Part shown: positions 2,782-61,281 of the stretch, one piece after another
Layout of the letters: each line of letters starts with the position of its first letter
How positions within the stretch are numbered: position 1 is the first letter of the stretch
Source: Brachycybe producta
Taxonomy: Eukaryota > Arthropoda > Diplopoda > Playtdesmida > Andrognathidae
Direction of reading: 5' to 3'
Assembly: GCA_036925085.1 (NCBI GenBank)
Contig: JAUPFP010000004.1
Coordinates: 1,998,001 to 2,062,000, forward strand
Length of the DNA stretch: 64,000 nucleotides
Made by a program: the position numbers and the translations under genes
Notes under the pieces: generated by a model
Database searches by the model: none
What the model was told of the DNA's origin: nothing
Seen by the model: the letters and a program-made list of their open reading frames with translations, nothing else

Positions 2782-3113
2782 TGAGGGATTGGATTTTTAT
2801 GCAATATTAACCAATTGTTTCTGAATCTGTGTGTGGCTCAAGAGTTAATTGTAAAGTAACAATCCCGTTTAGATCAACCAATGATTGTTTTTTTTTTCCA
2901 ATAAAAACACTGTTTAAGAGGCTAGAACTTTAGTTGACAACTGATAATAAACAGACATCTAGCCTCAAACAGCGGTTATGGATTAGAAAAAGCATAATTG
3001 TAGTTGATCTAACGATGATGATGTGGATGATTATTACTACACGATTAGCGTTTGGGCCACAAATTGAGAAACATCTGCTTGATATTACATTACAAATCAT
3101 ATTCCTGTTGATT
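2782..3113. mobile_element. Family B hAT-like MITE, copy B1
   Basis: Left end AGGGATTGGATTTTTATGCA; inner GTTTAGATCAACCAATGATT, then TAGCCTCAAACAGCG; right TTTGGGCCACAAATTGAGAA. The right terminus is diverged and no target duplication is visible. A 75-codon reading frame through it is chance. Confidence 0.75.
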
Positions 3114-3780: not shown

Positions 3781-4096
3781 TTAAGATCGTTATGAACAGT
3801 TAATTTTCAAATTCTAATTATGCTGTCTTTCAGGAGAAAAATTAAGAAACTAAAAACTAGAAAGTTAGCTCAATCACTTAAAGGTATTTTTATGTTCCTA
3901 TCTTCCAAAGAAAACTTTTTTATAGACATAATTAATAAATATCGTCTGCTGAAAGATACCAACATGAAAACATTCTTAAGTGATTGAGCTACTATTCTAG
4001 TTATTAAAACACATTCAAGTTTCTGTTCATATTTCAATTGAAAGACAGAATAATCAAAAGTTCTAGAAGCGTTTACACTTTACAACCACCTTTTAA
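3781..4096. mobile_element. Family A foldback MITE, copy A2
   Basis: Starts TTAAGATCGTTATGAACAG (the reverse complement of the usual right tail) and ends GCGTTTACACTTTACAACC...TTAA. The arms AGAAAGTTAGCTCAATCACT and AAGTGATTGAGCTACTATTC face each other. It is shorter than A1 because it combines the long and short forms of the terminus. Confidence 0.82.
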
Positions 4097-6561: not shown

Positions 6562-6935
6562 TTAAGGAGGCCTCTCGAACTCTTGATTAGACTCGTATTT
6601 TGTCTTTCAGGTGCAAACTTAAGAGAAACTTGAAAGTGGTTTTAGAAACTAGAATGGGTAGCTAATTGATTTCATGTTGTTATCTTTCAAAATAAACATT
6701 TTTTGTCAGCTTCAAAATGGCCCAAATTTAAAGCGGACGATATTCTTTAATTTTTGTCCATAAAAAGTTTATTTTGTGAAAGATCCATGAAAATATCCTG
6801 AAGTAACCACTTCATCCTTCGTGTTTCTAAAACATTTTCAAGTTTTTTTAAAAAAATTTTGGTCCTGAAAGACAGAATAATCAAATTTTTTTTTACAAAA
6901 AATCAGCTGTTCATAAACCATCTTAGCCACCTTAA
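6562..6935. mobile_element. Family A foldback MITE, copy A3
   Basis: Starts TTAAGGAGGCCTCTCGAACT and contains the TTGTCTTTCAGG and AGAATGGGTAGCT arm words and the CAGCTGTTCATAAACCATCT tail. The central loop has the GGACGATATT word shared by all copies. The right edge is approximate. Confidence 0.8.
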
Positions 6936-19002: not shown

Positions 19003-19300
19003 TAGGGATCGGATTTTTTTCAAGCAATTGTTTATCAACCTGTGGCTCAAGGGCCAATGGCGAAGTGACATCCTGTTTAGATCAACCGACAATTATGGCA
19101 TTTCAATCAAAAACACTGGTTAGAGACTAGAACGATATTTGAAAATTGAAAGTAACCATACATGTTGCCTCAAACCAGCCTTTTTTGATAGAAAAAGCTT
19201 AATTGCAGTTGCTCTGATGTAGAGGATTACTTCACAATTGGGACTTGCGCCACAAGTTTAAGAAACATGTGCATCATAATGCATACAAATCCGAGTCCTA
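19003..19300. mobile_element. Family B hAT-like MITE, copy B3
   Basis: Starts TAGGGATCGGATTTTT and ends CAAATCCGAGTCCTA. The flanks ACAATGAG and ATAATAAG agree at 6 of 8 positions. The inside has CACTGGTTAGAGACTAGAAC facing TTGCCTCAAACCAGCC. Confidence 0.82.
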
Positions 19301-19308
19301 ATAATAAG

Positions 19309-22300
19309 TATTCTATTAAGCCACTTTTTAGTATATATCTTTGCATCAACAAAACACATTATTAAATAATAGGCAATAGAAATCAGGTGCTTGTAAATCA
19401 CAAGTGTGGACGGAAATGGTTTTATTTAGGGATAGATGGAAGGAGGGGGGGGGGTATTAACCCCAAATTGATCTGGCCCCTGTCTTTTTTCTCTATATTT
19501 TTCCACCCTTCTACCATACTGATTTTTGCTCATTGTCATGTATGTCTGTATTGATAAATGTCTGTGGTTATCTGTATAATACATATATCAGGTCTTATGT
19601 ATATAAAAAAAAAAGATATATGGGGCCTTCCTACATCAATACTTTATTTTAGTAATTATTTTTGAAAGGGGCGTGGGCCAGAAAGAGAAAGTATATGCTA
19701 TTACCCCCCACCCCCATTTGGGAATTGGGACCTCTTTGTAATCATTCATCAACAGTAAGATCAAATGGTATGGAATCATTTGTGTGTGTGTGTGTTTTAG
19801 AGAAGATATTATATCCAGTTGCATCAAATGTTGGTTTTAACATTCTGTGATAATCCTTCACAATATGTTGGACTGATAGTTGTTGAACATCCTGTATATT
19901 AGTAGGCCTACACGTCAGTCTTGTTACAATTGTATATCCAATACCTATTTCATGCCATGTCTATTTCTGAAGTTGCAAACAATACATGCCAAGGGTCTTT
20001 TTTTTTTGACAGTACAACATGACTAACACCTTGTGAAGATGATCTCTTGTGATAGTGTCATTTGGTTTCATTTTTGTTTTGATGTCTTCATCTTCCGTGC
20101 ATATTTTTTTAGGGGGAGGGGGAGTGGAGGGGATATTTCTCTCTTCTGTCCATCATCAGGGAAGTTTTTCTTTTCAAATTCATTCTTTGCCCTGCATAGG
20201 CCCGACATGGCGTGATGAATTGGGTAATGTTATTTGATGTACACAAACAAGTAACCTCAGTAACCAAGTAACCTCATATAAAATATTACAAATTTGAATA
20301 TTTGTAGCAAAAGCTTGACAGCCATTACTAGCAGAAGTTATAACATCGACTAGCAATGACAGTCCAGATTTACCAGCATACCCTTAAAATTATGTGTTTA
20401 AGCTTTGTGATAATCGTGAATTAAAATGAAATAACAGCAATGGGTCTGTGGTTAATATTGCCTAAGCTCATGTAGCACAGTTTTAGACTAAAGGTAATAA
20501 ATAGCTCAGGCTACAAATGGTTTTTATTCAGTGTGTGTGTGTGTGTGTGTGATTCGACCATGCTTGACTGTTAATGGTCAAAGAAATTGAAGTTACTGTG
20601 TCGTTTTATTTAAAGAAAATGTCTAGAGTAATAGGATTCGGTTACTGCAGTCGGATGAATGAATGAATGAATGAATGTTTTTTGGCTTGACTTCTTTTGC
20701 GTGGAAATGATGATCATGATAGTTTTGTGTGTTCTAAAGTGGTTTTTGACTATGTGTTCTACTAGTATAGTTACATGAAAGTCTATGTACATGTATATTG
20801 GTGTTTGTATGTGTGTATGTTTATTATGAGAGAGAAAGTGGTCAAACTATCTCAAAGCATTTTTGGGTGTTGTGACTATAGTGAAAAATGCCCTGAAAAA
20901 TGCCTCGGTTGGCAAGCACAGGAAGTGATCCGGAGAGTGAGTTCGCTTAGTGGTCCATCAAGTTTTCTCTCCATCCATGGATGCTTTGCAATGTGTGTTC
21001 TTTTTTTTTTGGCCAGCAAATACGAACGGACAGACCATAGATATAAGAGAAAAGATATACATTATTTTCTCTCTCTTTCTTTCTCTCTATTTGTATAGTA
21101 TAGTTTTGGAACGGATGCCTGGTTTCGGCCTCTTCGTTCTGGATTGCTAACTTAGTGGTTTACATTTGTTACTTGTGCTTGTTACACTTTACTTACTTTT
21201 AGCCTTTTTCGTTTCGTTTTGAATTACTTTGCGCTTTTTTTTCTTCTCTTTTTGCTTTTTTCCAGGCCTTCAATTTGGTTTGCATTCAGTTGTAAGTTTT
21301 GTGAGGATCAGAAAGCATGTGTTTTAACATCAACATAATATCTAAATATTAACTACAATTGATATTTGTTTGCTTTTATATTTATTTAAATTTGTCTTGT
21401 GTGATAGGCAATATAGTTTTGGATACATGGTGACAACAGTGTGTTGCAGCTCAATAAGAATGTGTTCTTTACTGTTCTATGCGCACATGGTGCCATGGGA
21501 AAAAAATGTTACAACTTTGTGACACTATGGTTATGGTATGACTTTATGGTTTTCTGAATGATTTTGAATTTAGTTTCATCTTCTGCAACCCAAAAAAGGT
21601 AGGAATGTACTGCATGCTACATATGTATGTAGCATGTTATTTTTGTACATGTTTCTGCACATGCGCATAATGTGAATTGTTATATTATATGACATCTTTA
21701 GTGACATTTGTGGAAATTGTATTGGTATTGCCACGTTTACAGTTAGAAAGTAACTTAGACTGCACACAAAATAAGCACAATATAATTTTATAACATTGTG
21801 TCCATTCCACAATCTGAAAGATCAATACAATGTTTTGAACTTTTGATAGAAACAAATATCAGCAGCCAATTGTAGGAATAGTTGGGTGTTAGTTAACTCT
21901 TATGTGAGACGTTTCTTCTAGGCTTTATAAGGTATGTTTGAAATCGATAATGCTATGCACTTTTTTTTTCTTCTGGATTTGCATGCATGCCTGTTTGAAA
22001 ACTGACGACAATAGGTTCACACTACTAACCCTCATTTTCTCAAGTTCTCCCCTTAACTATTATTATGTCTTATATGTATTGCCATTGTATGAAATAGGGC
22101 TCAAAGTTTCTTTCTCTCTCTTGACTTTATATTTTCTACAACAAATGCCACAAACCAATCTTCTAAAAATGGGAATTCTACTGTTTTTTATGGTAGTTCT
22201 GTGTATATTGGACTGGTGTAAAAGTTGCATTAAGCTATATCATTATGCCACATGATATTCTTTAACATAATGCAAATTGCACATAGCCAATAAATAGACC

Positions 22301-24886: not shown

Positions 24887-27800
24887 CAAGTTAATATTTT
24901 TACTAAATCGACTTTAGCTTTTTTGTTGTTGTTAGTTTTACTTTTAGTTAGCATTGATAACAAATAAAGTTTTACATATACACAAAGTAAAATATACTAA
25001 CTTTAGAAAAGATTTCTATATCAACTTGAATTTTCTGCTCAAGTTGATACAAAACTTTTTTATAAGGATAAGGTTATTTTTATGTATTTAAATTTTATGA
25101 TTGCATTGATCACATATGAGTGTTATTTTTCCTCTTTTTTAAAACTTATTATACGGTTCGTATATATGGAAAATATATATAGAAGAGGGTGTGCAATATA
25201 TACAATTGTATATATGTAGACGTCATTGTTAGACGTCAACACCATCAGAATATTTTCTTCTTCTTATTCTCTTCAGTTCCAAGCCAGTGGTGACTACTAT
25301 ATTTCAAAAAAAAAAAATACAACATGGTTTGATTTCTACGAAGCAGAACGTATATTGTATACATACAGTTGTACGCGTTTGTGAACCGTGTATGACTTTG
25401 GCTTTTTATTTCACGTTCAAAGAAATATTCTGGATAGGTCTCTATACATATGTATAGTAGTAAGGTCCCTATTTGTTGGCCAGTTTGACTGAACTTATGT
25501 GAAGAAATTGGGGAAAAAGGAAGGGAATGGAAAAGGAAATACAAACCCTTCTTATATTCTTTATTATAGGCTGTGTATGTGGTGTAAGAAGAAACATGTC
25601 CAATTGGAGTCGCGCGTCACTGAATTTTCTCTCTATCTTACTATTCCATGAAAACGTAAGAAGAAAAATGAAGGAAATCATGAGAAATGGTTCTGTGACT
25701 TTTTTGAAAGAAAAAAAAAAAGAAGACAAAACAAAACACTAACTTTTATAGATCTCTCTTTATAATAGAGAGTTTTAAGTTTCTTGTATTCAAGAGTCGC
25801 CGTTTTCTATTCATTGGTCCCTTTTTCTTTATTCAACCAATTTATTATATATGTAGAAAATTTATTCAAATATATATTGGACAAGTCTAGAAAAAATAAG
25901 AAAGATTTTTAAGTCTTTTATGTTCAAAGAAAATTCAGTAAGAAACTCAAGTTAAATTTATTTTTTTTAAAGCAATCGTAATTCTTACATGTTTTAGTGA
26001 AGAAGAAGAAAAAAAAAAGAAAAAAGTTCTATTGAGCGCATTCGGAAATGAAAGAAAAAGTTGTTATCTTTAAAGAAAATAGAAATGTTAGCATTCGGAA
26101 ACAACGTGTGGACTGGGGCTTCTGTAAAGAAAAAAATGTCTCTGGGAAATTACTAGATCTACGACCCTACCATTCTTAAGAAAGCAAGCGTCTAATTCAG
26201 GTACTTGCTTTCTTGAGAAAATTAAATTGAATCTGGTGACCTTTAGTGTAAGGATCACAATGTATAAAGAATGTGTATATTTAGACGTTACGTTTGCATC
26301 TTGTTGGCAAAATCAAGCACATCCGGAAATTTTTTTTCTTTAAAGAATTATTGTAGAGGTGGAGCAATTCTTCTAGATTTTTTACAGCACAAAGAAATAG
26401 GCTTTAGTTTCCGATTGCGGCTTATGTCTCATTTTATGCAGCGTTTATAGTTTGCATTTTACAAAGCCAGATTTGCATTAAAAATTTGCATTAAATAAAC
26501 GATAAACGTGATATTTTTTAAAGTCTATGCAAAATATTACAGACTTCTGTGTTGTTTTTCAAGGCTTGTTTATATCTTGTTTCTATTGTTGTTCGCGGGT
26601 TTTTTTTTGCTTCTTCTAAACATTTTTCTTCTTGTTTCATTTTTGGCATTTGAGTGAAAGAAAAATTCGGGTTTGAGTTTTTTTTTGACGATTACCTATA
26701 ACGCGTGTTTCATGCTTACTTAAGCCGAACCAAACGAGATTCTTCGGTGCATGTCACAACCTTATTCACACCCGTGTATCTTCTTTTTTCTTAGAAAAAT
26801 CCACGTTTTATAAAAAGAATGAAACTTGTTATATTATGTGGAAATACAAAATATAATAAATGAAAAATTATATTAGGTTCGAAAATCAATTAAAATTTGA
26901 TTCTTTTATTTTATAGACTTATTGAGCCATAATAAACGAATTGCCATTTTTTTGAAGGTTTATTATTTTTGTCATGTAGTGATTTTTTTTTTGAAAGCTT
27001 GCTTTAGTTTACAGTTAGGTTTTCTTCACACATGGATTTTTTTTTGTGCGCTGAGTTCACATTTTGACGGATTTTTTTCATGCAATTGCCGCCTCGTCGC
27101 TTCTTGTCTTTTCTTAGTAAAAAAAAAATTCGGGAAAAACAGATCATAGCTAAAAGTTGCTCCATTAATTCTTCTAGGACCCCCCTTCTTCCTTATCCAG
27201 AAAAAAATATAGCAAAACAGAATAAAGAATGATAGGAGGAGGAGGAGGGAAAAAAATTCTTGTTCTTTGTCGGAGTATAAGACATAACAAGAAGAGAAAA
27301 AAAATCGAACTAATGGAGAAAAAATTGAAACCGATAATTAATGGAAGACTCGTTTGTTGAAGGGGCGTATAATATTTTTTTTGTTTTTGTGCTGAGTTTC
27401 TTTCCATATTGTGTTTATTCATGTGGTTGCTGGCTGTTTTAAAGAGACTGAAGTTGTTGCTTGTCGTCGCTGCTGTCGTCACTAGGATAAATTGAGTGCA
27501 GAAATGCTATTAGATGAAAATAGACATAAAAAACAGACATGAGGTTGATGCAAATGAGACTTAATATAGAAATTGCATGTTTAGTGAAATTATACATATA
27601 TACCTAATGATTAAAGTAAAAAGTTTTCATAATGTGATCTAAAATGTATAATACAGGTACAATACAGGGCTACATTATGATACCATATGAGTGCCATTTT
27701 ATGCAATAACAGTTTGATCTAAAATAAAAAGGCATAAAGTGCACGATTTTCATAATTTTCAGAAATTTGCATAAAGTTGACATAATTTTACAGATAAAAA

Positions 27801-28097: not shown

Positions 28098-28411
28098 TAG
28101 GGCTCGGATTTTTATGCAATATCAAGCAAATGTTTCTTAATCTGTGGCACAGAGGCCAATTGTGAAGTAACAATCCGGTTTAGATGAACCAACAATTACG
28201 GGTTTCAATCGAAAACACTGGTTAGAGGCAAGGTTAGTTGACAACTGATAGCAATCAGACATTTAGCCTGTAACCAGGCTTTTTGATTAGAAAAAAGCAT
28301 AATTGCAGTTGCTCTAATGATGATGATGATGATGATGATGATTTCACAATTGGCAGTTGAGCCACAAATTAAGAAACATTAGCTTGATATTGCATAAAAC
28401 TCCGAGTCCAT
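28098..28411. mobile_element. Family B hAT-like MITE, copy B4
   Basis: Starts TAGGGCTCGGATTTTTATGC and ends CATAAAACTCCGAGTCCA. The flanks CTTTTAAA and CTTATGAA agree at 6 of 8. A (GAT)n run at about 28315-28343 has grown inside the right arm, where sister copies have one or two units. Confidence 0.84.
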
Positions 28412-29268: not shown

Positions 29269-29599
29269 TTTAAGTTGGTTTGAAAGTGTAAACGCCCATT
29301 CCGAACTCTCTGGTTATTCTGCATTTTGGGAGCAAAATTAAGGGAAACTTGAAAGTGTTTTAGAAACTAGAAGAGTAGCTTAATCACTTAAGGGCTTTTT
29401 TTTTTAAAGATGTTGATTATCTTTTAAAATAACCTTCTTATTTGAGTTTGCGTAAAAGATGATTTTTTTTATAATGTTTGTCTATAAAAAGTTTATTTTG
29501 AAAGATTTGAAGTGATTGACCTACCATTCTAGTTTCCAAAACACTTTCTAGTTTTGCTCCTTATAGATCTAAAATTAGCTGTTCAGAAAACATCTTTAA
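29269..29599. mobile_element. Family A foldback MITE, copy A6
   Basis: Bounded by TTAA at 29269 and 29596. GGTTTGAAAGTGTAAACGCC, GGGAGCAAAATTAAGGGAA and AGAAACTAGAAGAGTAGCTT are clear family words; the right arm has CTACCATTCTAGTTTCC. Confidence 0.8.
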
Positions 29600-35900: not shown

Positions 35901-37589
35901 GAATTTTAAGTCAATTACAAAAAAAAATACATAATATTTTGTTCTGAGGTGTTTGTGGAACACCTTTTTTTCACCTGTCCTTATGGATCTGACAACTGCA
36001 TATCGTTATAATCAAACCATGATGGAATATTATTCATGTAAAAGTAAGTATTGGATAAAATGGTTTCACAAAATGGCCCTTTTCATGTTTTTTTTTTTAA
36101 ATCAAAAGGTCTTTTTTGTGTGTGTTGCTTTTTCTGTTAACTTTTTAAACATTGTTTTATGTGTGAAGGTTTTTTTTTTTTTCACAGCTGGCATTTTCAC
36201 TTTTTCAAATTTTGTTTTTTGTATCTGAAAACTCTTGAATGAAATTTTATTTTGACTTTTATTGAAGAACTTTTTTTTTCTGTATCTGAATTTCTTAGAG
36301 GAAGATTTCACTTTCATGAGTTTCTAAGGTAAATAGTCTATATATTGAGTATACTATACAGTATATAAAGAAGTGTATTCAATGTATATGTAATCATAAT
36401 TGGATTTAGCTTTACAAAATTAGTTTCTTCGTCTTTCCCATCTTGAGATTTTTTCTGTCTAATCTTTCTAGGCTTTAGACCTATATATTGGTTTTATATA
36501 AAGTAGGTAATCCTATAGAAAATTTACAGGGCCTTGAATATGAGGTTGATACAATGAAGCTCAACACTTATTTTGCAATTGATGCATTCAGCTTTATATA
36601 TATATATAGGGTTCACTTCTTTCTACATCACAAGACATGCAAACTTTTGTGTATTTCATTTGAAAGAACTTTTTCTTTCGCCCCATTATCTTGGTATTTT
36701 GAATTCATGTTCTTTACAGTTGGAAGAAATAAACAAGATATTTTTCAATGATTGTTGTTGTCCCTTTCCAAAGTTGATTAGTTTTTCTCTCTCTTTTTTT
36801 TTCTCTTGGAAACTGAACAAACCATTTTCTCCATGCACTTATATAGGTTTCTCTTCTTTCTGGTCTTTTGAATCAAATTTTACAATTGCCAAAAACCAAA
36901 TATACAAACAAACAAACAAAAAATACACATAGATTTTGCCTTTTATTTTACTGATGCTTCAAAATGAAATTAATGAAATATAATTGAATAGAAAATGAAG
37001 GTGATATGAACATGCATGCATGTATTAATAATACATGTATGATGATGGTAAACTTGTATTCATGGCAGCATAACAAGAAAAGTCCTGCTGTGTGTATAGT
37101 ATTTATATTTCATAGATTTTCAAATAAAAATGAATACTCTCTCTCTTTCTTTGACTCACTCTGTTTTTGGATGGCAAATAAAATTTTTATACAGAGAAAT
37201 TGCATTCTGTTCTAAAATAGAATGTTGTTTATTTTTGAGAATCTAAAATGCATGCATGGGTCAAGTCGACATGATGATGATGATGATGGCCGTCATTGTG
37301 TTTCAATAACTTTATAGGTAAATGGAAGTGTCCTTTCAAGTTTTCGCTTCTTGTGTGTTTGAATTTGAATGTCCACTTTGTGTCTATGTAGACTATATGC
37401 TTCTTGCATGGACCCTACCTATGTGTGTGTGTGTGTGTGTGTGTGTGTAGTATATATGCAGGATATACTGTCTAGTGCCATTTACAACTAAAACCGAGCT
37501 CCAATTCAATAATAAGTAAGAAAAAGAAAGAGTAGCGGCAGACCACTCACTCTTATTTCATGTTTTTATTCGTGTCCATTACATGATAA

Positions 37590-39760: not shown

Positions 39761-40455
39761 CATTTGTGAGAAATCCAATTTATTACTACACTGATGATGG
39801 TGTATTTAAGAATGATGATCATCATTTGCTCATCTGCTGTCAAATTTCAGCTCAATTTTCGTTTCCTTGACTGATTCTTGCCTTTAGGCTACATTTAAGC
39901 TTAAAAGTAGAGTCTACAACTTGTAGTAGTTCTACAATAGATCTATCATTGAAGTTGAGACGTGAAACAAGGCACACATAACAAGACCTTATTTCGTGAT
40001 ATATCTATAGTGTTGGTCATCGAAGCGGGACCACTAGTAAAAGTACATCCCACCCACCCAACACACACACTTTTCATTTCTAAAAATCCCTTTTTGGTGA
40101 CGTCTAAATGTGTGTATGTTGTATTGCTTGAGTTGTTGGTGTGTCCCTCCTGAGTGTTCTTTTCGCTCAGGTAACCATGCGAGTGACTGGAGTTGGCACC
40201 TGTGACGATTGCGGCCATTACACGGCTACCTGCATCTTGACTTCCGCACTTGAGACATGGAGAAAGAAAGAGAGAAGAAAAATCTCTTGTATACAGTTTC
40301 TATATAATAAATACCCTATCTTAAGATGGGTGAGAAAATATCATTGGAGTTAACATTTTATGCCTCCACCTGTATATATACACTACAGTATATAGTGATT
40401 ACGAGTGCATTCACTGTATCGTCTCGAAATACACACCTATTCTGTTCTATTATAA

Positions 40456-40567
<112 letters not shown>

Positions 40568-41152: not shown

Positions 41153-41469
41153 TAGGGTTCGGGTTTGTATGCTGCAATATCGAGCAAATTCAATTTGTGG
41201 CGCAAGTGCCAATTGTCAAGTAATTATCATCATTAGAGCAACTGCAATCATGCTTTTTCTAATCAAAAAGGCTGGTTAGAGGCTAGATGTCTGCGTACTA
41301 TTAGGTGCGAACTAGAATGGTAGCAGCTAACCAGTGTTTTTGATTGAAAGAAAAAAACCAATTGTTGGTTGATCGAAACGGGATTGTTACTTCACAATTG
41401 GATCTTGGACCACAGATTGAGAAACAATTGCTTGATGGATAGATCGATTGCATAAAAATCTGTGCCCTA
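41153..41469. mobile_element. Family B hAT-like MITE, copy B5
   Basis: Starts TAGGGTTCGGGTTTGTATGC and ends CATAAAAATCTGTGCCCTA. The flanks ATAATTAT (41145) and CTAATTAT (41470) agree at 7 of 8. It lies 1.2 kb before the Pax micro-exon. Confidence 0.86.
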
Positions 41470-41999
41470 CTAATTATGTTCCACCGTTTTTATACAGAGA
41501 TCAAAAGACACTCAGCCAATTATCTAAAAATTGTGTTCGAATGTCTACTCAAGGCACTAAAAGTTGCAAATATTTATTTCATCTAGAAATCTCAGTGAGT
41601 CAGGTTTTAGTTTTCTGGATACCTATATTTTCTACTAAATGTATGCTACATATATAGTTGAGGATGTAGTGGGCCTTTAAATGTCTGAAATTCGTTTTTT
41701 TTTTTTAAATTTGCATGTCTACAATGCCTGCAATGTGCATGTGCCTTCATGTTTTTTCTTGTGTGTTTTTAGTGTCTTTTCAAATCAGCCTCATTGCCTT
41801 TTTGTCTGATGGTACAGACTTAGTAGGCTATATAGTGGTGTTTTTGTGTTTACTGACATTATCTGTATGTCTGTGTGTTTGTGTGTGTGCGTGTGCGTGT
41901 GTGTGTGTGTGATTTGTAACATTGCATGTTAGAATGCTATTTCTTACAAGTTTAGTCTCGACTAAACCAATCTAGACTATTTACATGTTCAATTTTTAC

Positions 42000-42260: not shown

Positions 42261-42640
42261 TATTATTATAAAAACAATTCAATTCTATAAGTTTTTTTTA
42301 GGATTTTAATTGCAGTTCCGTGACTTGAACATATATAATTTGATTTTATATTATGTATACTACAAAATAAGTGTTGATATAACCAAATAAATGCCAGTTG
42401 TGAAAATATTATTTTATACCTGTTTTATTTGAAACTGTGTTTTTTGTGTGCTTTAAAATCGTTTTTTTTATATATATTTTTTATGATAAAAAATGAAATA
42501 TAATTCTTAAATATATAACGATCAATGAACTGTATCTGTTTTGTTATAAATATGTTTTTTGTTTTTTGTTTTCTTTCTGAAAAACTGTATGCATTAATTT
42601 GAGATAATAGCCTCTAAGCTCCTCCCTTTTCGAATTGCAG

Positions 42641-42679
42641 GGGCGCATTTCCTGTCCAGTGTTGCTGACCAACAATCAT
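42641..42679 (+). CDS. Pax2/5/8: Candidate 39-nt micro-exon of Pax2/5/8, just before the paired-box exon
   Basis: A pyrimidine-rich acceptor (tract about 42611-42640, ending TTGCAG) and a strong donor (GTAAGT at 42680) enclose 39 nt. Read in phase 1 the exon gives (x)-AHFLSSVADQQS and ends with one base, T. That T joins the GT opening the exon at 43812 to make Cys, followed by HGGVNQ, so the frame runs straight into the paired domain. The exon begins with GG, so the upstream intron would also be phase 1 and the exon can be skipped or included without a frameshift. Vertebrate Pax2/5/8 genes have a short first coding exon at this place, also split after the first base of a codon. No in-frame ATG occurs here: the frame is open back only to about 42598, so a start exon must lie further upstream. 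Cys before HGG is unusual (Gly is typical), which is the main doubt. Confidence 0.62.
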
Positions 42680-43811
42680 GTAAGTTGACGAAGATGATGA
42701 AGAAGAAAAAAATAACTTTCTCGGAACGATTGGGAAGCTGCTTTGCATATCTAAACTAATTAACTGCATGTCGTTTTAATTATTAATCGGGATCTTTTTT
42801 TTTAATTTGTTTTTTTAACAATTTCTTGTTAATTAACACATTTTTCTTTTTAACTTGGGAAATTGATAAATTGTGGTTTTATTTCACGACCCAAATTGAA
42901 TTAAGATGTTTGAAATTAGAATAAAAGCAGAAAGAAATCTTTTTTGAATCCATCTGTTATTTAGAACGTTTACATTTGTATACTTGGGGCCTATTTATAA
43001 TAGACTTTTTTTTTTTGGAAAAACTCAAATTCACACAATTTGTGTAATTTAAAGAGGAAAAAAAGATATGGTCAACATTGCAATCAATACAAAATACAGT
43101 TCATTATATATATTGAACTGAATCAATTGTGTTTTGTTTGTTTGGTATTAAGAGGAGAGAAGGGGCTCTTTTCTATACATGGATTTTTCTATCAAGGGAC
43201 CTAAATATAAATGAGCTTTATTGAGATATGTTGCACATGAGGGGAAATAAAAGATAAACCTATACTTAAATGGACATCTTAATTAAATTGGCTTCAAAGT
43301 AGGATTCATGATTTGGACCATGACAGCCATTTCAACTACCCTTTGTTCACTTTTGGGTCTTTTCATTTGGGTTGGGTCCTTTGTGTTTTCTATATATAAA
43401 TATATATGTAGGACCAAAATGCAGTTGTCATTGCATTGGAGATTTTTCTGAATGTCCATATGTTTGAAAAACCCTCTTCTCCTCCTTCACATCCCTGCTG
43501 TTCATTTAAAATAACCTCCTCCCACCCTCAGTAATGTTTTGGTGTAGGGTTCTAATGTTAGATATACTGGAGACACAAAAGGGGTAAATTACATTCTTTA
43601 TAAATTGTCTATTTAATTTTCAAAGTAAAATAAATGTATTATATTTTAGATAATATTCTTTATTAATTTTAATGGATGCAACTTTTTTTTTTATTATCGA
43701 TTTGGTTATTTAAATCAGCAGCTAACATTTATTAATTTGCATGTTAGGCTATTGTTTTTTTATATAAATATTGTAATTAATTTCTTATTGATTTTTTTGT
43801 TTTGTTTGTAG
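42680..43811 (+). other. Intron between micro-exon and first paired-box exon (1.13 kb)
   Basis: The intron runs from GTAAGT to TTTGTAG and holds no recognised transposon. At 43220-43560 the sequence is more complex than its surroundings and contains AT-rich homeobox-type (CTTAATTAAAT), GATA-type (AGATAA) and Sox/TCF-type (CTTTGTTC) words, so it is a plausible enhancer. That is inference from motif words only. Confidence 0.6.
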
Positions 43812-43977
43812 GTCATGGCGGGGTCAATCAATTGGGCGGTGTTTTTGTGAACGGACGACCTCTGCCGGACATTGTCCGGCAGCGGATCGTTGAATTGGCT
43901 CACAATGGAGTTCGACCGTGTGATATCAGTCGGCAGCTCCGTGTTTCTCATGGTTGTGTCTCAAAAATTTTGGGCAG
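43812..43977 (+). CDS. Pax2/5/8: Pax2/5/8 paired-domain exon 1: PAI subdomain
   Basis: This exon encodes the N-terminal half of the paired domain, from HGGVNQLGG through [16 protein letters not shown] and [15 protein letters not shown] to [12 protein letters not shown]. It covers the beta-hairpin and the first helix-turn-helix, which bind DNA through minor- and major-groove contacts. The key recognition residues read Q-L-R-V-S-H, that is Gln42, Arg44 and His47, the combination known for Pax2/5/8; Pax6 has Ile, Gln and Asn there. The acceptor is TTTGTAG and the donor CAG/GTAAAG. The length is 166 bp, which I recall as the length of the matching vertebrate PAX2/PAX5 exon, with the same phases (1 at entry, 2 at exit). 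The exit splits an Arg codon that is completed at 48860. No stop or frameshift is seen. The product acts in the nucleus as a sequence-specific transcription factor; animal Pax2/5/8 genes work in sensory, neural and excretory development. Confidence 0.97.
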
Positions 43978-44410: not shown

Positions 44411-44767
44411 GAATGACAAGCTCTGATTATTTTGCTATTTTCAGGAGCGACGCGGAGAGGAAATTGAAAGCGTGTTAGAAACTAGAACGGTAGCTGAATC
44501 ACTTAAGAATTATTTCATGTTGATATTTTTTCAAAATAAACTTCTTATAGACCAAAAAATTAAGAAATATTGTCTGCTTAGAATTTAATCATTTTAAAAT
44601 TGTCAGAAAAAGCTTATTTTAAAAGATATCAACATCAAAATATTGATATGTGATTGAGCTAGCCTTCTAGTTTCTAAAATACTTTCAAGTTTTTTTTTTA
44701 AATTTTGCTCTTGAAAGACAGAATAACTAGAGTTTGAAGGGCGTTTACATTTGAAAACTAGCGTTAA
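44411..44767. mobile_element. Family A foldback MITE, copy A7, inside the Pax intron
   Basis: The left arm is TTTTCAGGAGCGACGCG and AGAACGGTAGCTGAATCA; the right arm is TGTGATTGAGCTAGCCTTC, ending GGGCGTTTACATTTGAAAAC and TTAA at 44764. The left end is truncated or diverged. It shares subfamily changes (GTGTTAGAAACTAGAACGG) with copy A8 in the same intron. Confidence 0.8.
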
Positions 44768-48579: not shown

Positions 48580-48829
48580 TTAGTATATTAAAATTAACAT
48601 TGTTTCAGGAGCAACACTAAGGAGAAATTGAAAGTGTGTTAGAAACTAGAACGGTAACTGAATGACTTAATAGTATTTTCATGTTGATATCTTTCAAATT
48701 GACATAATAAGCTTATTTTAAAAGATATCAACATCAAAATGATTTTAAGTAATTGATCTACAATTCTTGTTTCTAAAACACAAAGTTTTTTTTCTTGAGG
48801 GTGAGGTTTACATTTTAAAACCATTTTAA
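48580..48829. mobile_element. Family A foldback MITE, copy A8, abutting a Pax splice acceptor
   Basis: GTTTCAGGAGCAACACTAAG, AGAACGGTAACTGAATGAC and an inverted right arm with AAGTAATTGATCTACAATTC; it ends TTTTAAAACCATTTTAA (TTAA at 48826). The acceptor AG for the RED exon is at 48858-48859, so only about 29 bp separate transposon and exon. Confidence 0.8.
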
Positions 48830-48859: not shown

Positions 48860-49057
48860 GTATTATGAGACTGGGTCAATACGACCAGGTGTCATTGGAG
48901 GCAGTAAACCTAAAGTTGCAACTCCGAAAGTAGTGGATGCAATTGCAAATTATAAGAAACAAAATCCGACCATGTTTGCCTGGGAAATCAGAGACCGGTT
49001 ATTGGCGGATGCTATCTGTGATCAGGACAATATTCCTAGTGTTAGCTCTATCAATAG
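48860..49057 (+). CDS. Pax2/5/8: Pax2/5/8 paired-domain exon 2: linker and RED subdomain
   Basis: The exon begins by completing the Arg codon, then reads [18 protein letters not shown] (end of PAI and the linker). The C-terminal RED helix-turn-helix follows: [33 protein letters not shown] and [14 protein letters not shown]. These are hallmark motifs of all Pax paired domains, and the GVIGGSKPK linker fits Pax2/5/8. The acceptor is TTTCTCTAG and the donor AG/GTGAGT, close to consensus. The exon is 198 bp, matching the vertebrate counterpart as I recall it, and exits in phase 2. A palindromic family A transposon ends only about 29 bp upstream of the acceptor. The reading frame is intact and the residues that make the fold are conserved, so the gene looks functional. 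Confidence 0.97.
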
Positions 49058-51724: not shown

Positions 51725-51972
51725 GATTGTACGCAACAAAGCTGCTGAAAAGGCCAAACATATACCCCATGTAAATCAACCGAACAACGGTGCTAGTCCC
51801 ACGGGTTCCGTAGTCTCAAATACGACATCAGTCATCACTCATGCACCTCCAGCTCACGAAGGCACGCCACCATCATTGCATCGACCTTCCTATTCGATTA
51901 ATGGAATTCTTGGTATTCCAAATGCTGATCCCAATGGCAATAATATTAGCAAAAGGAAAAGAGATGATAACG
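51725..51972 (+). CDS. Pax2/5/8: Pax2/5/8 exon with end of RED, spacer, octapeptide and KRKRDD
   Basis: The first base completes Arg; then IVRNKAAEKAKH ends the RED subdomain. A Pro/Ser/Thr/Asn-rich spacer of about 43 residues leads to the octapeptide YSINGILG (51891-51914), the Groucho/TLE-recruiting motif of Pax2/5/8. After IPNADPNGNNIS comes the basic KRKRDD (51951-51968), the equivalent of vertebrate KRKRDE and probably part of nuclear localisation. The acceptor is TTTCAAAG and the donor G/GTAAGG, exit phase 1. In vertebrate PAX2/5 an intron separates the IVR segment from the octapeptide segment, whereas here both lie in one 248-bp exon, so an intron was lost or never present. The next expected exon would carry the partial homeodomain; I do not find it in the remaining 12 kb. 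The frame has no stops. Confidence 0.95.
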
Positions 51973-56925: not shown

Positions 56926-58514
56926 TGTAAATCTCAGTTTGAATTTCCATAGCAGATTTACTTACGAGCAATCGTAATAAATGTGAAAATGAAAATCAGA
57001 AAGAAACATTTAACCATTTTATTTTCAAAAAAAAATAACGCCGATTTATGTTTAAAAAGAAGATTTTTCTCAAGTATTCTATACTTTTCTTGTTGTTGTT
57101 CTTTGAAGAAGGGTTTAACAACAGACTTTTATATACAAACACATACGATCAGATATTAATGAACCTCAAATTAGATTAACGTAATTTCTCTTTAACGTAT
57201 TTCATTTATGAGTGTGTTATAGTAGTTTATAATACGGTGTAATGAAGCATTGGTCTCTGAATTTCCCCCCACCCTTTCTCTCTCTTTTCTATGCAATTTC
57301 TCCCTTCTTTTATCAACTTTTACTGCATTTATTATTATTAGTAATGGAAATTCGACAGAGTGGCTCTGATCTTTTTTTTTTATTATTTTCTCTCTCTGTT
57401 TTCTCCCCTCCGCCTCCTCTTTCTCCCCTTGTATCGCTCAGATACCAGAGATTGGAGTTTTTCGCCCAAGTTGAGCTATCATTTACAGTCCCCGTCAATA
57501 GGACGACGACAAGCACTTAATCACAAGCTGGGAGGAGGGACCTCGACACTACCATATTTTTGAATCTCTATAGGGTCTATATATGCAAATTGAACTTAGG
57601 TCCACGCTAGAACAGTTTTTCTAATGCGCTTGCGTCAACTTTGTCTCTATATAGACATACACACACATACATATATATATAATATAATAATAAGAAATAT
57701 ACTTTATAAAAAGCCACCACCACTACCAATAGGCCTATATATGATGAACCATCTGGCATTGAAAATAAAAAGTGCATGGAATCTCTTCCGAAAGAATAAG
57801 ATTAAAAATTACGATTTGTCGATTTCTCCGCCCAGTTTGTCAAACCCTCTTTTTTGTTACACACATTGCATGTTATTTTTTTTTCTTCCTATACCTATAC
57901 GTGTCATATGTAGATTATGCATAAATAGGTTTATGCGTCTGTCATAATGTCACAACTAAATTATTGTGCATAAATGCGAACGGAAAAATAAAAAGGAAAC
58001 TAAAAATGAATTCGATTGATATCTCTATAAGAACAATGCTATTTTTATGATGTCGACAGCAGGAGGGTCATTTTTTTAAAAGATATAACAATTGTTTCCA
58101 TCCGGCATATTTTATAACATATAGAGGAAGAGGGTACATTTTAAGTTGGTTGCTTGCTTATAATAATAATAATAAAAAGCAATTTTAGCGGTGGTTTAAG
58201 TTAGTATTGCAATTAAAATCTAATAACAATGAAACGTGAGGGGTCAGCCTTCATTTGTATTTGAATGGCAAACTTATTGAATATTCTTTTTTTTTTTTCT
58301 GTCTGGTTAACTGGTATTGATTTGTGAGTTGAATGTTTTGGTTGGTGGGCAACTGGATGTGGGGCCTTGGGTCTAAATTGCTAGAACAATCAATAAAGTA
58401 GATTCTCAATTGTTATACAAGATATATTACATGGCCTACTTGTAAGTTACCCCCGGTACCTGGTGAAATCTGTTTTGCCCCAGCATTGTTTAAGTGCTCT
58501 CAGTTCTTAATCAT

Positions 58515-58808
58515 TAAGACTCTTGGTTTGTATGCAATGTCAAGTAAATGTTTCTCAATTTGTGGCCCAACTGCTAATTGTTAAATAATCATCAACATTA
58601 GAGCAATTCTAATTTTGTTTTGTTTTTCTAATGAAAAAGGCTGGTTAGAGGATTTATGTCTATTTATTATCAATTGCCAACTGAAGTTCTAACCATCTAA
58701 TCAGTGTTTTGATTGAAAACATCCTAATTGTTGGTTAATGATGGGATTATTACTTCACAGTTGTCCTTTGGGCCACAAATTGAGAAACATATGCAAATCC
58801 GAGCCCTA
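58515..58808. mobile_element. Family B hAT-like MITE, copy B7
   Basis: TAAGACTCTTGGTTTGTATG at the left and AAATCCGAGCCCTA at the right, with AAGGCTGGTTAGAGG inside. The right arm is slightly shortened (CATATGCAAATCC). The target duplication is unclear. Confidence 0.8.
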
Positions 58809-60330: not shown

Positions 60331-60906
60331 GTCTGCAGTTAGTGTTGATAATGATAACATTGCTTTTATGTTTTGGAAACAAACTCTTATTTTTTTTCTT
60401 CTGTGCATTTATTGTTATTACTCGCAAGTGGAGTGAGAGTGAGATTGAGAGTTTTGGGTAGAGAGAGAGAGAGAGAGAGTACCCTCAATGTAGGAGGTCA
60501 TTTATCTATATACTCTTCCAGGAGCCTAATATAAGCACACATATATACACACTCAATCCAATTTCAATCGATATTATAAGTATTAGGAGAATGAAAAGCA
60601 AGAGAGGGACATATTGAAAGAGTCAATTAAGTAGATTAAATGTCATAAAATCAATCAACATTTACACAATTGATTTTTTTGTTCACTCTTGCAAGTGGGG
60701 TCTTGAGTTATGGCCCCCTTTTTTTTAGTCAAATATAGGTATAGATTACAAATTAATCTTGTGTTTTTGTGTTTTTTTTTTTCGTACAGGACATAAATGT
60801 CAATCATCAGGTTATTATGTTATTATTCACAACATAATTACATATGTTTGGCATGTTTTATGTTTGCAACCATTGGAGCAGATTTTTTTTTTTATGTTGA
60901 TTCACT

Positions 60907-61281
60907 TTAAGGTGGTTTTAAAGTGTAAACGCCTCTTTTAATTCTTGATTATTCTGTTTTTCAGATGCAAAATGAAGAGAAACTTGAATTCGTTTTAGAA
61001 ACTAGAAGGGTCAATCACTTAAGGAGAATATTTTTATGTTGATATCTTTCAAATTATAGCTTTTTATGTCAGTTTTAAAAATGATTCAACTTTAAGCAGA
61101 TGATATTTTTTTTTTTAATTTTTGTCTATAAAAAGTTTATTGTAAAAAATATCAACTTATCCTTAAGTGATTTAGCTAACTTTCTAGTTTCTAAAATATT
61201 TTATGGCTTCTCTTAATTTTGCTATTATAAGACAAATTAATGAAGAGTTCGAGAGACGTTTACACTTTAAGACCATCTTAA
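60907..61281. mobile_element. Family A foldback MITE, copy A9 (best preserved termini)
   Basis: The left end TTAAGGTGGTTTTAAAGTGT and the right end ACACTTTAAGACCATCTTAA are reverse complements with few mismatches. The symmetry continues outside the TTAA (ttcact...agtgaa). The arms TTAGAAACTAGAAGGGTCAA and TTTAGCTAACTTTCTAGTTT flank a loop with the GATGATATTTTT word. Confidence 0.85.

Follow-up and report, generated by a model that had tools for sequence, protein, structure and literature searches.

The window analysed here is a stretch of 64 kb (C4:1998001-2062000) from an animal genome of 295 Mb in 442 contigs. Judging from its sequence, the window carries on its plus strand the 5' portion of a Pax2/5/8 gene, which we take to be the shaven-type gene, and our model of it spans exons 1 to 4. 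The paired domain is divided between exon 2 (43812-43977, 166 nt, HGGVNQ...SKILG; Pfam PAX, E 1.6e-31) and exon 3 (48860-49057, 198 nt; Pfam PAX, E 1.4e-35), both bounded by splice sites. Exon 4 (51725-51972, 248 nt) is an open frame with splice sites that encodes the octapeptide YSINGILG and the motif KRKRDD. In the Pfam run (9 of 191 stop-to-stop frames of at least 60 aa) the PAX matches were exons 2 and 3 only; the open frame of exon 4 had no Pfam match, and the window held no tRNA and no Rfam match. Human Pax5 chain 1k78_A is the best of the four PDB sequences matching exon 2 (E 8.5e-33), and the order of the matches is Pax5, then Pax8, Pax6 and Prd. The PAX matches, the rank of Pax5 and the presence of the octapeptide bear out the first-pass annotation, which had called this a Pax2/5/8 gene. 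A partial homeodomain of Pax2/5/8 is found in chordates and is reported absent in Lophotrochozoa. As literature text the string HGGVNQLGG turned up, among the matches listed, in a cattle Pax gene paper. The octapeptide fits the form Y[TS]IX2ILG quoted in an excerpt of PMC5333810.

The first coding exon is likely the segment at 35983-36043 (plus strand), which runs from an ATG through MDLTTAYRYNQTMMEYYSCK plus a base A, ends in phase 1 and has the donor AAAA/GTAAGT. Our scan gave 13 candidates that run from an ATG to a phase 1 donor scoring at least 2.5, and by donor plus codon score this one ranked only 11th. It was selected because its DLTTAYR is the peptide of a Sepia officinalis Pax2/5/8 forward primer (PMC5333810, partial text), so the assignment is based on a primer-peptide match rather than on a transcript. 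The pattern D[LIVM]TT[AS]Y occurs once in the six frames of the window, and the 20-residue peptide of the exon has one genome match (E 5.6e-8). As literature text DLTTAYR was found, among the matches listed, in the available part of PMC5333810 only. This suggests a first-exon peptide common to the present animal and a cephalopod.

Between exon 1 and exon 2 lies a short candidate exon at 42641-42679 on the plus strand, laid out as ...CTCCTCCCTTTTCGAATTGCAG / GGGCGCATTTCCTGTCCAGTGTTGCTGACCAACAATCAT / GTAAGT. Its acceptor region (42618-42640) has the pyrimidine tract CTCCTCCCTTTTC, a TGC at -5 and a final CAG, and the donor GTAAGT occupies 42680-42685. Read in phase 1 it gives (A)GG AHFLSSVADQQS T(GT), so that AHFLSSVADQQS runs into TGT-HGGVNQ. 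Exon 2 begins at 43812 with GT CAT GGC, which makes it a phase 1 exon and the junction codon TGT, a Cys. The sequence confirms what had been read at first sight, an AG acceptor, a GTAAGT donor, 39 nt with phase 1 at both ends, a frame into HGGVNQ and a Cys before HGG on inclusion. The 13-codon frame described then is indeed open; more exactly, it comprises 12 complete codons and two that are split. Exon 1, which was located independently, ends in the matching phase.

Splice sites were scored with a general matrix rather than one trained on the present genome. On this scale the acceptor of the 39-nt exon scores 7.62, in the top 0.38% of the 3196 AGs scored in the window, which agrees with its earlier description as strong, and the donor scores 4.47, in the top 0.75% of 3599 GTs. 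The other acceptors of the same gene score 7.71 (exon 2), 6.24 (exon 3) and 3.87 (exon 4), and the donors of exons 1 to 4 score 3.58, 4.05, 6.63 and 6.56, so the candidate falls inside the range of the remaining junctions of the gene. The stretch has what an internal coding exon has: an AG and a GT of exon-like strength, an open frame, and a phase matching both neighbours. It is also single-copy, with one match genome-wide for a 201-bp stretch containing it. Its GC content, 51%, is exon-like; the intron averages 30%, and 3.8% of the 39-mers in it attain that level. Codon usage is not decisive with either of two training sets: with the first, 7.4% of open upstream 36-mers do as well as it does; with the second, 11.9% of those in the intron and 27.5% of those in 400 kb do; and of 165 true coding 36-mers, 33% have codon log-odds no better than its own. 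Among the proteins searched, no known one matched the peptide of 13 residues.

How often would such a cassette arise by chance? We counted open frames of 12-150 nt in phase 1/1 with a total splice score of at least 12.09. Positions 1-43800 of the plus strand contain exactly one, 42641-42679 itself, and there are none at 43800-64000 or on the minus strand of the window. A control of 20 regions of 10 kb elsewhere in the genome, both strands, gives 2 per 400 kb of strand-sequence (both in L020, and conceivably real exons), which corresponds to 0.039 expected per 7.8-kb intron. In 60 dinucleotide shuffles of 44 kb, in 2-kb blocks, the mean was 0.05, and 3.3% contained at least one. The interval between exons 1 and 2 holds three candidates, and the runner-up scores 7.74. 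When the frame rule is relaxed to any open frame the picture is different, with 19 candidates per 400 kb, 0.4 per shuffled 44 kb, and two on the minus strand of the window, at 14.57 and 12.76, that exceed the 39-nt exon. Much of the chance argument rests on the phase match.

On the plus strand, any frame, nine candidates score at least 9.5, among them exons 2, 3 and 4, a shorter form of exon 4 and the 39-nt exon. The remaining ones are 40171-40329, 60790-60911 and two short pieces, one of 26 nt at 21266, which has the highest score of the nine (13.4), and one of 13 nt at 25277. The segment 40171-40329 is 159 nt long, with an acceptor of 7.55, a donor of 4.04, a total of 11.59 and an open frame with an ATG, and a GC-rich island lies there at 40150-40249. 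Its phase is wrong for linking exon 1 to exon 2: joined in phase 1 it reads into a TGA, so it cannot be a coding exon at that place and we rejected it as an extra exon between exons 1 and 2. Its exon-like signal may be chance.

Exon 1, the 39-nt exon and exon 2 all join in phase 1, so omission of the middle one is also in frame, and when the frames are joined in silico both forms stay open through exon 4. Inclusion reads ...YYSCK-R-AHFLSSVADQQS-C-HGGVNQ..., and skipping reads ...YYSCK-S-HGGVNQ.... The first-pass annotation had expected a Gly on direct joining of an upstream exon ending in G, and a swap of a single residue. Both expectations have to be revised: the final base of the likely exon 1 is A, so skipping yields Ser (AGT) before HGG, and inclusion replaces that Ser with Arg-AHFLSSVADQQS-Cys and so lengthens the protein by 13 residues net. 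The predicted segment between the primer sites used for Sepia, counted from the second base of the Asp codon to FAWE, is 390 nt with the 39-nt exon and 351 nt without it, and the segment amplified from Sepia Pax2/5/8 is given as 420 bp in the accessible text of PMC5333810. If the paired domain lengths are equal, the N-terminal segment of Sepia would be longer than both forms here. This lends weak support to a longer N-terminus, not to the 39-nt exon in particular.

About 1.2 kb upstream of the 39-nt exon, at 41250-41500, lies a short, dispersed repeat with partly inverted arms (MITE-like). Related copies are found near 2930-3090, 19101-19261, 28234-28395 and 58508-58794, and there are very many genome-wide. 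An origin of the 39-nt exon from a transposon is unsupported, as it has one genome match against 3567 first-look candidates (40 scored) for the repeat. A second family with inverted arms occurs at 1259-1367, 3851-4015, 6592-6838, 29311-29547, 44426-44716, 48590-48784 and 60946-61240, one copy lying just 3' of exon 2 and another just 5' of exon 3. The interval between exons 1 and 2 also contains a (TA)55 microsatellite (40458-40567). Elsewhere in the genome there are two paired domains about 200 kb apart in opposite orientation (G000:C40:399260-399421 and 596321-596482; L003, L002), which are presumably pox-neuro-like, and further Pax loci that we take to be one pox-meso-like Pax1/9 and two Pax3/7-like genes. 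No Pax relative was confirmed among the 34 pattern matches in viral_contigs or the 214 in genome_contigs. A COX1 frame that contains TGA has a copy on C442, and further COX1-like copies are present on large contigs (G000:C1:12697416-12698753 and G000:C17 at about 4.0 Mb; L012, L013), one of which has a TAA besides its TGAs. The large-contig copies look like nuclear copies of mitochondrial DNA. The TGA within the COX1 frame, the pox-meso-like Pax1/9 and the two Pax3/7-like loci point to an arthropod as the probable source of the gene.

We believe the best explanation for 42641-42679 to be a real internal coding exon, second among those of this Pax2/5/8 gene, and we put the probability of this at roughly 0.8. 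It sits in the 7.8 kb that separate the MDLTTAYR exon from the first paired-box exon, and the spliceosome, using its acceptor and its GTAAGT donor, would join exon 1 to the 39 nt and these to exon 2. The contrary view is that a chance AG and GTAAGT pair happens to flank a short open stretch and is never used. Short open frames are common, any-frame equals turn up at 19 per 400 kb, the codon usage of the stretch is near background, and in the excerpts of PMC6132355 the first exons of vertebrate PAX5 are followed directly by the paired-box exon. Set against this, the expectation falls to 0.039 per intron once the required phase is imposed, and the other candidates in the same intron reach at most 7.74. 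We consider an unused pseudo-exon unlikely, while giving it more weight than the other account that would deny an internal exon here, namely that the stretch belongs to an alternative first exon driven by a promoter of its own, as PAX5 exon 1B is. Its position beside the paired-box exon does resemble that of the vertebrate alternative first exons (PMC6132355, partial text). However, the frame holds no ATG between the stop at 42595 and the donor, so the exon is not an initiating one, and it starts at a good acceptor. This makes an alternative first exon highly improbable.

A real internal exon would probably be included in most transcripts, with skipping possible. The phase symmetry merely permits skipping, and the strong splice sites argue for frequent inclusion; the acceptor, at 7.62, matches the one of exon 2, at 7.71, in strength. 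A more specific version of the same explanation, in which the exon is a regulated cassette included in some cells (e.g. neurons or sense organs), is possible and we hold it tentatively, at somewhat less than even odds. Inclusion would then lengthen the protein by 13 residues and put a Cys at the paired-domain edge, and skipping would give the short Ser form. The phase symmetry with exon 1 speaks for such a cassette, as do a CTCT run and the TGC found at -5 of the acceptor, and vertebrates vary their N-termini at the same junction while two N-terminal kinds are given for Mytilus Pax2/5/8 in the partial texts. The genome also encodes an eMIC/SRRM_C domain (G000:C68:306782-306931, L035; peptide RRRGSPSFLDKRRITR; E 1.6e-4, above the cut-off), a match which suggests that machinery for splicing short exons is present. 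On the other side, a TGC in the final 20 nt is also found at 66 of 201 high-scoring AGs.

The comparison with the eMIC (Srrm234)-dependent neural exons of the fly, as excerpted from PMC8797185, cuts both ways. The likeness lies in the shortness of the exon and in a UGC close to the 3' splice site. The fly exons have a weak 3' site, a long AG-free zone and short introns, whereas here the 3' site is strong, the flanking introns are long and there is an AG about 23 nt upstream. That the exon is a neural cassette controlled by eMIC, toggling between the Ser form and a Cys form 13 residues longer at the edge of the paired domain, we regard as quite improbable. If it were true, a protostome gene would gain by splicing what vertebrates gain through the alternative promoters of PAX5, and the added Cys could render DNA binding redox-sensitive.

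What then would follow from the real internal coding exon we prefer? Should transcripts carry it, splicing could vary the N-terminal arm that lies just before the beta-hairpin of the Pax2/5/8 paired domain in a protostome as well. A constitutive exon, on the other hand, would be a small one of the ordinary sort. A 5' model of exon 1, a 39-nt exon and exon 2 is of the kind that automatic annotation can miss. A description of this exon in the literature was not found among the matches listed, in a search that took in few subscription journals, and the available portions of PMC2532684, PMC4625944 and PMC6065069 describe no such exon.

The suggestion that N-terminal variation at this junction was already familiar from vertebrates is well founded, as both the PAX5 exons 1A/1B and a 12-bp insertion in fish Pax2.1 are described in the texts as excerpted. 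The N-termini of PAX5A and PAX5B come from alternative exons 1A and 1B with two promoters; each isoform is able to replace Pax5 in early B-cell differentiation, and PAX5B acts more weakly on the Cd19 promoter and shows no activity in S194 cells (PMC6132355, partial text). As in PAX5A/B, it is some 14-15 residues directly before HGGVNQ that would vary here, at the same junction and with the paired domain unchanged. The difference is that the candidate is an internal exon where PAX5 has alternative first exons, and the peptides are unrelated. In zebrafish and medaka Pax2.1, the 12-bp insertion falls where the paired domain begins, is described as using an alternative donor, adds 4 residues and is supported by ESTs, and a 21-bp exon between exons 2 and 3 is alternatively spliced (excerpts of PMC4488758). 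Again it is a Pax2/5/8 gene whose in-frame variation would lie right where the paired domain starts; unlike the fish case with its ESTs and alternative donor, ours is a separate 39-nt exon predicted from genomic sequence. So the same junction is varied in vertebrates by promoters (PAX5) or by donor choice (fish Pax2.1). Among protostomes, Mytilus galloprovincialis has Pax2/5/8 transcripts of two N-terminal kinds, which may come from two genes or from alternative splicing, with variation flanking the paired domain, and Sepia has the same first-exon peptide DLTTAYR (PMC5333810, partial text). The newness of our finding is modest, since it would be splice variation of a known kind at a known place.
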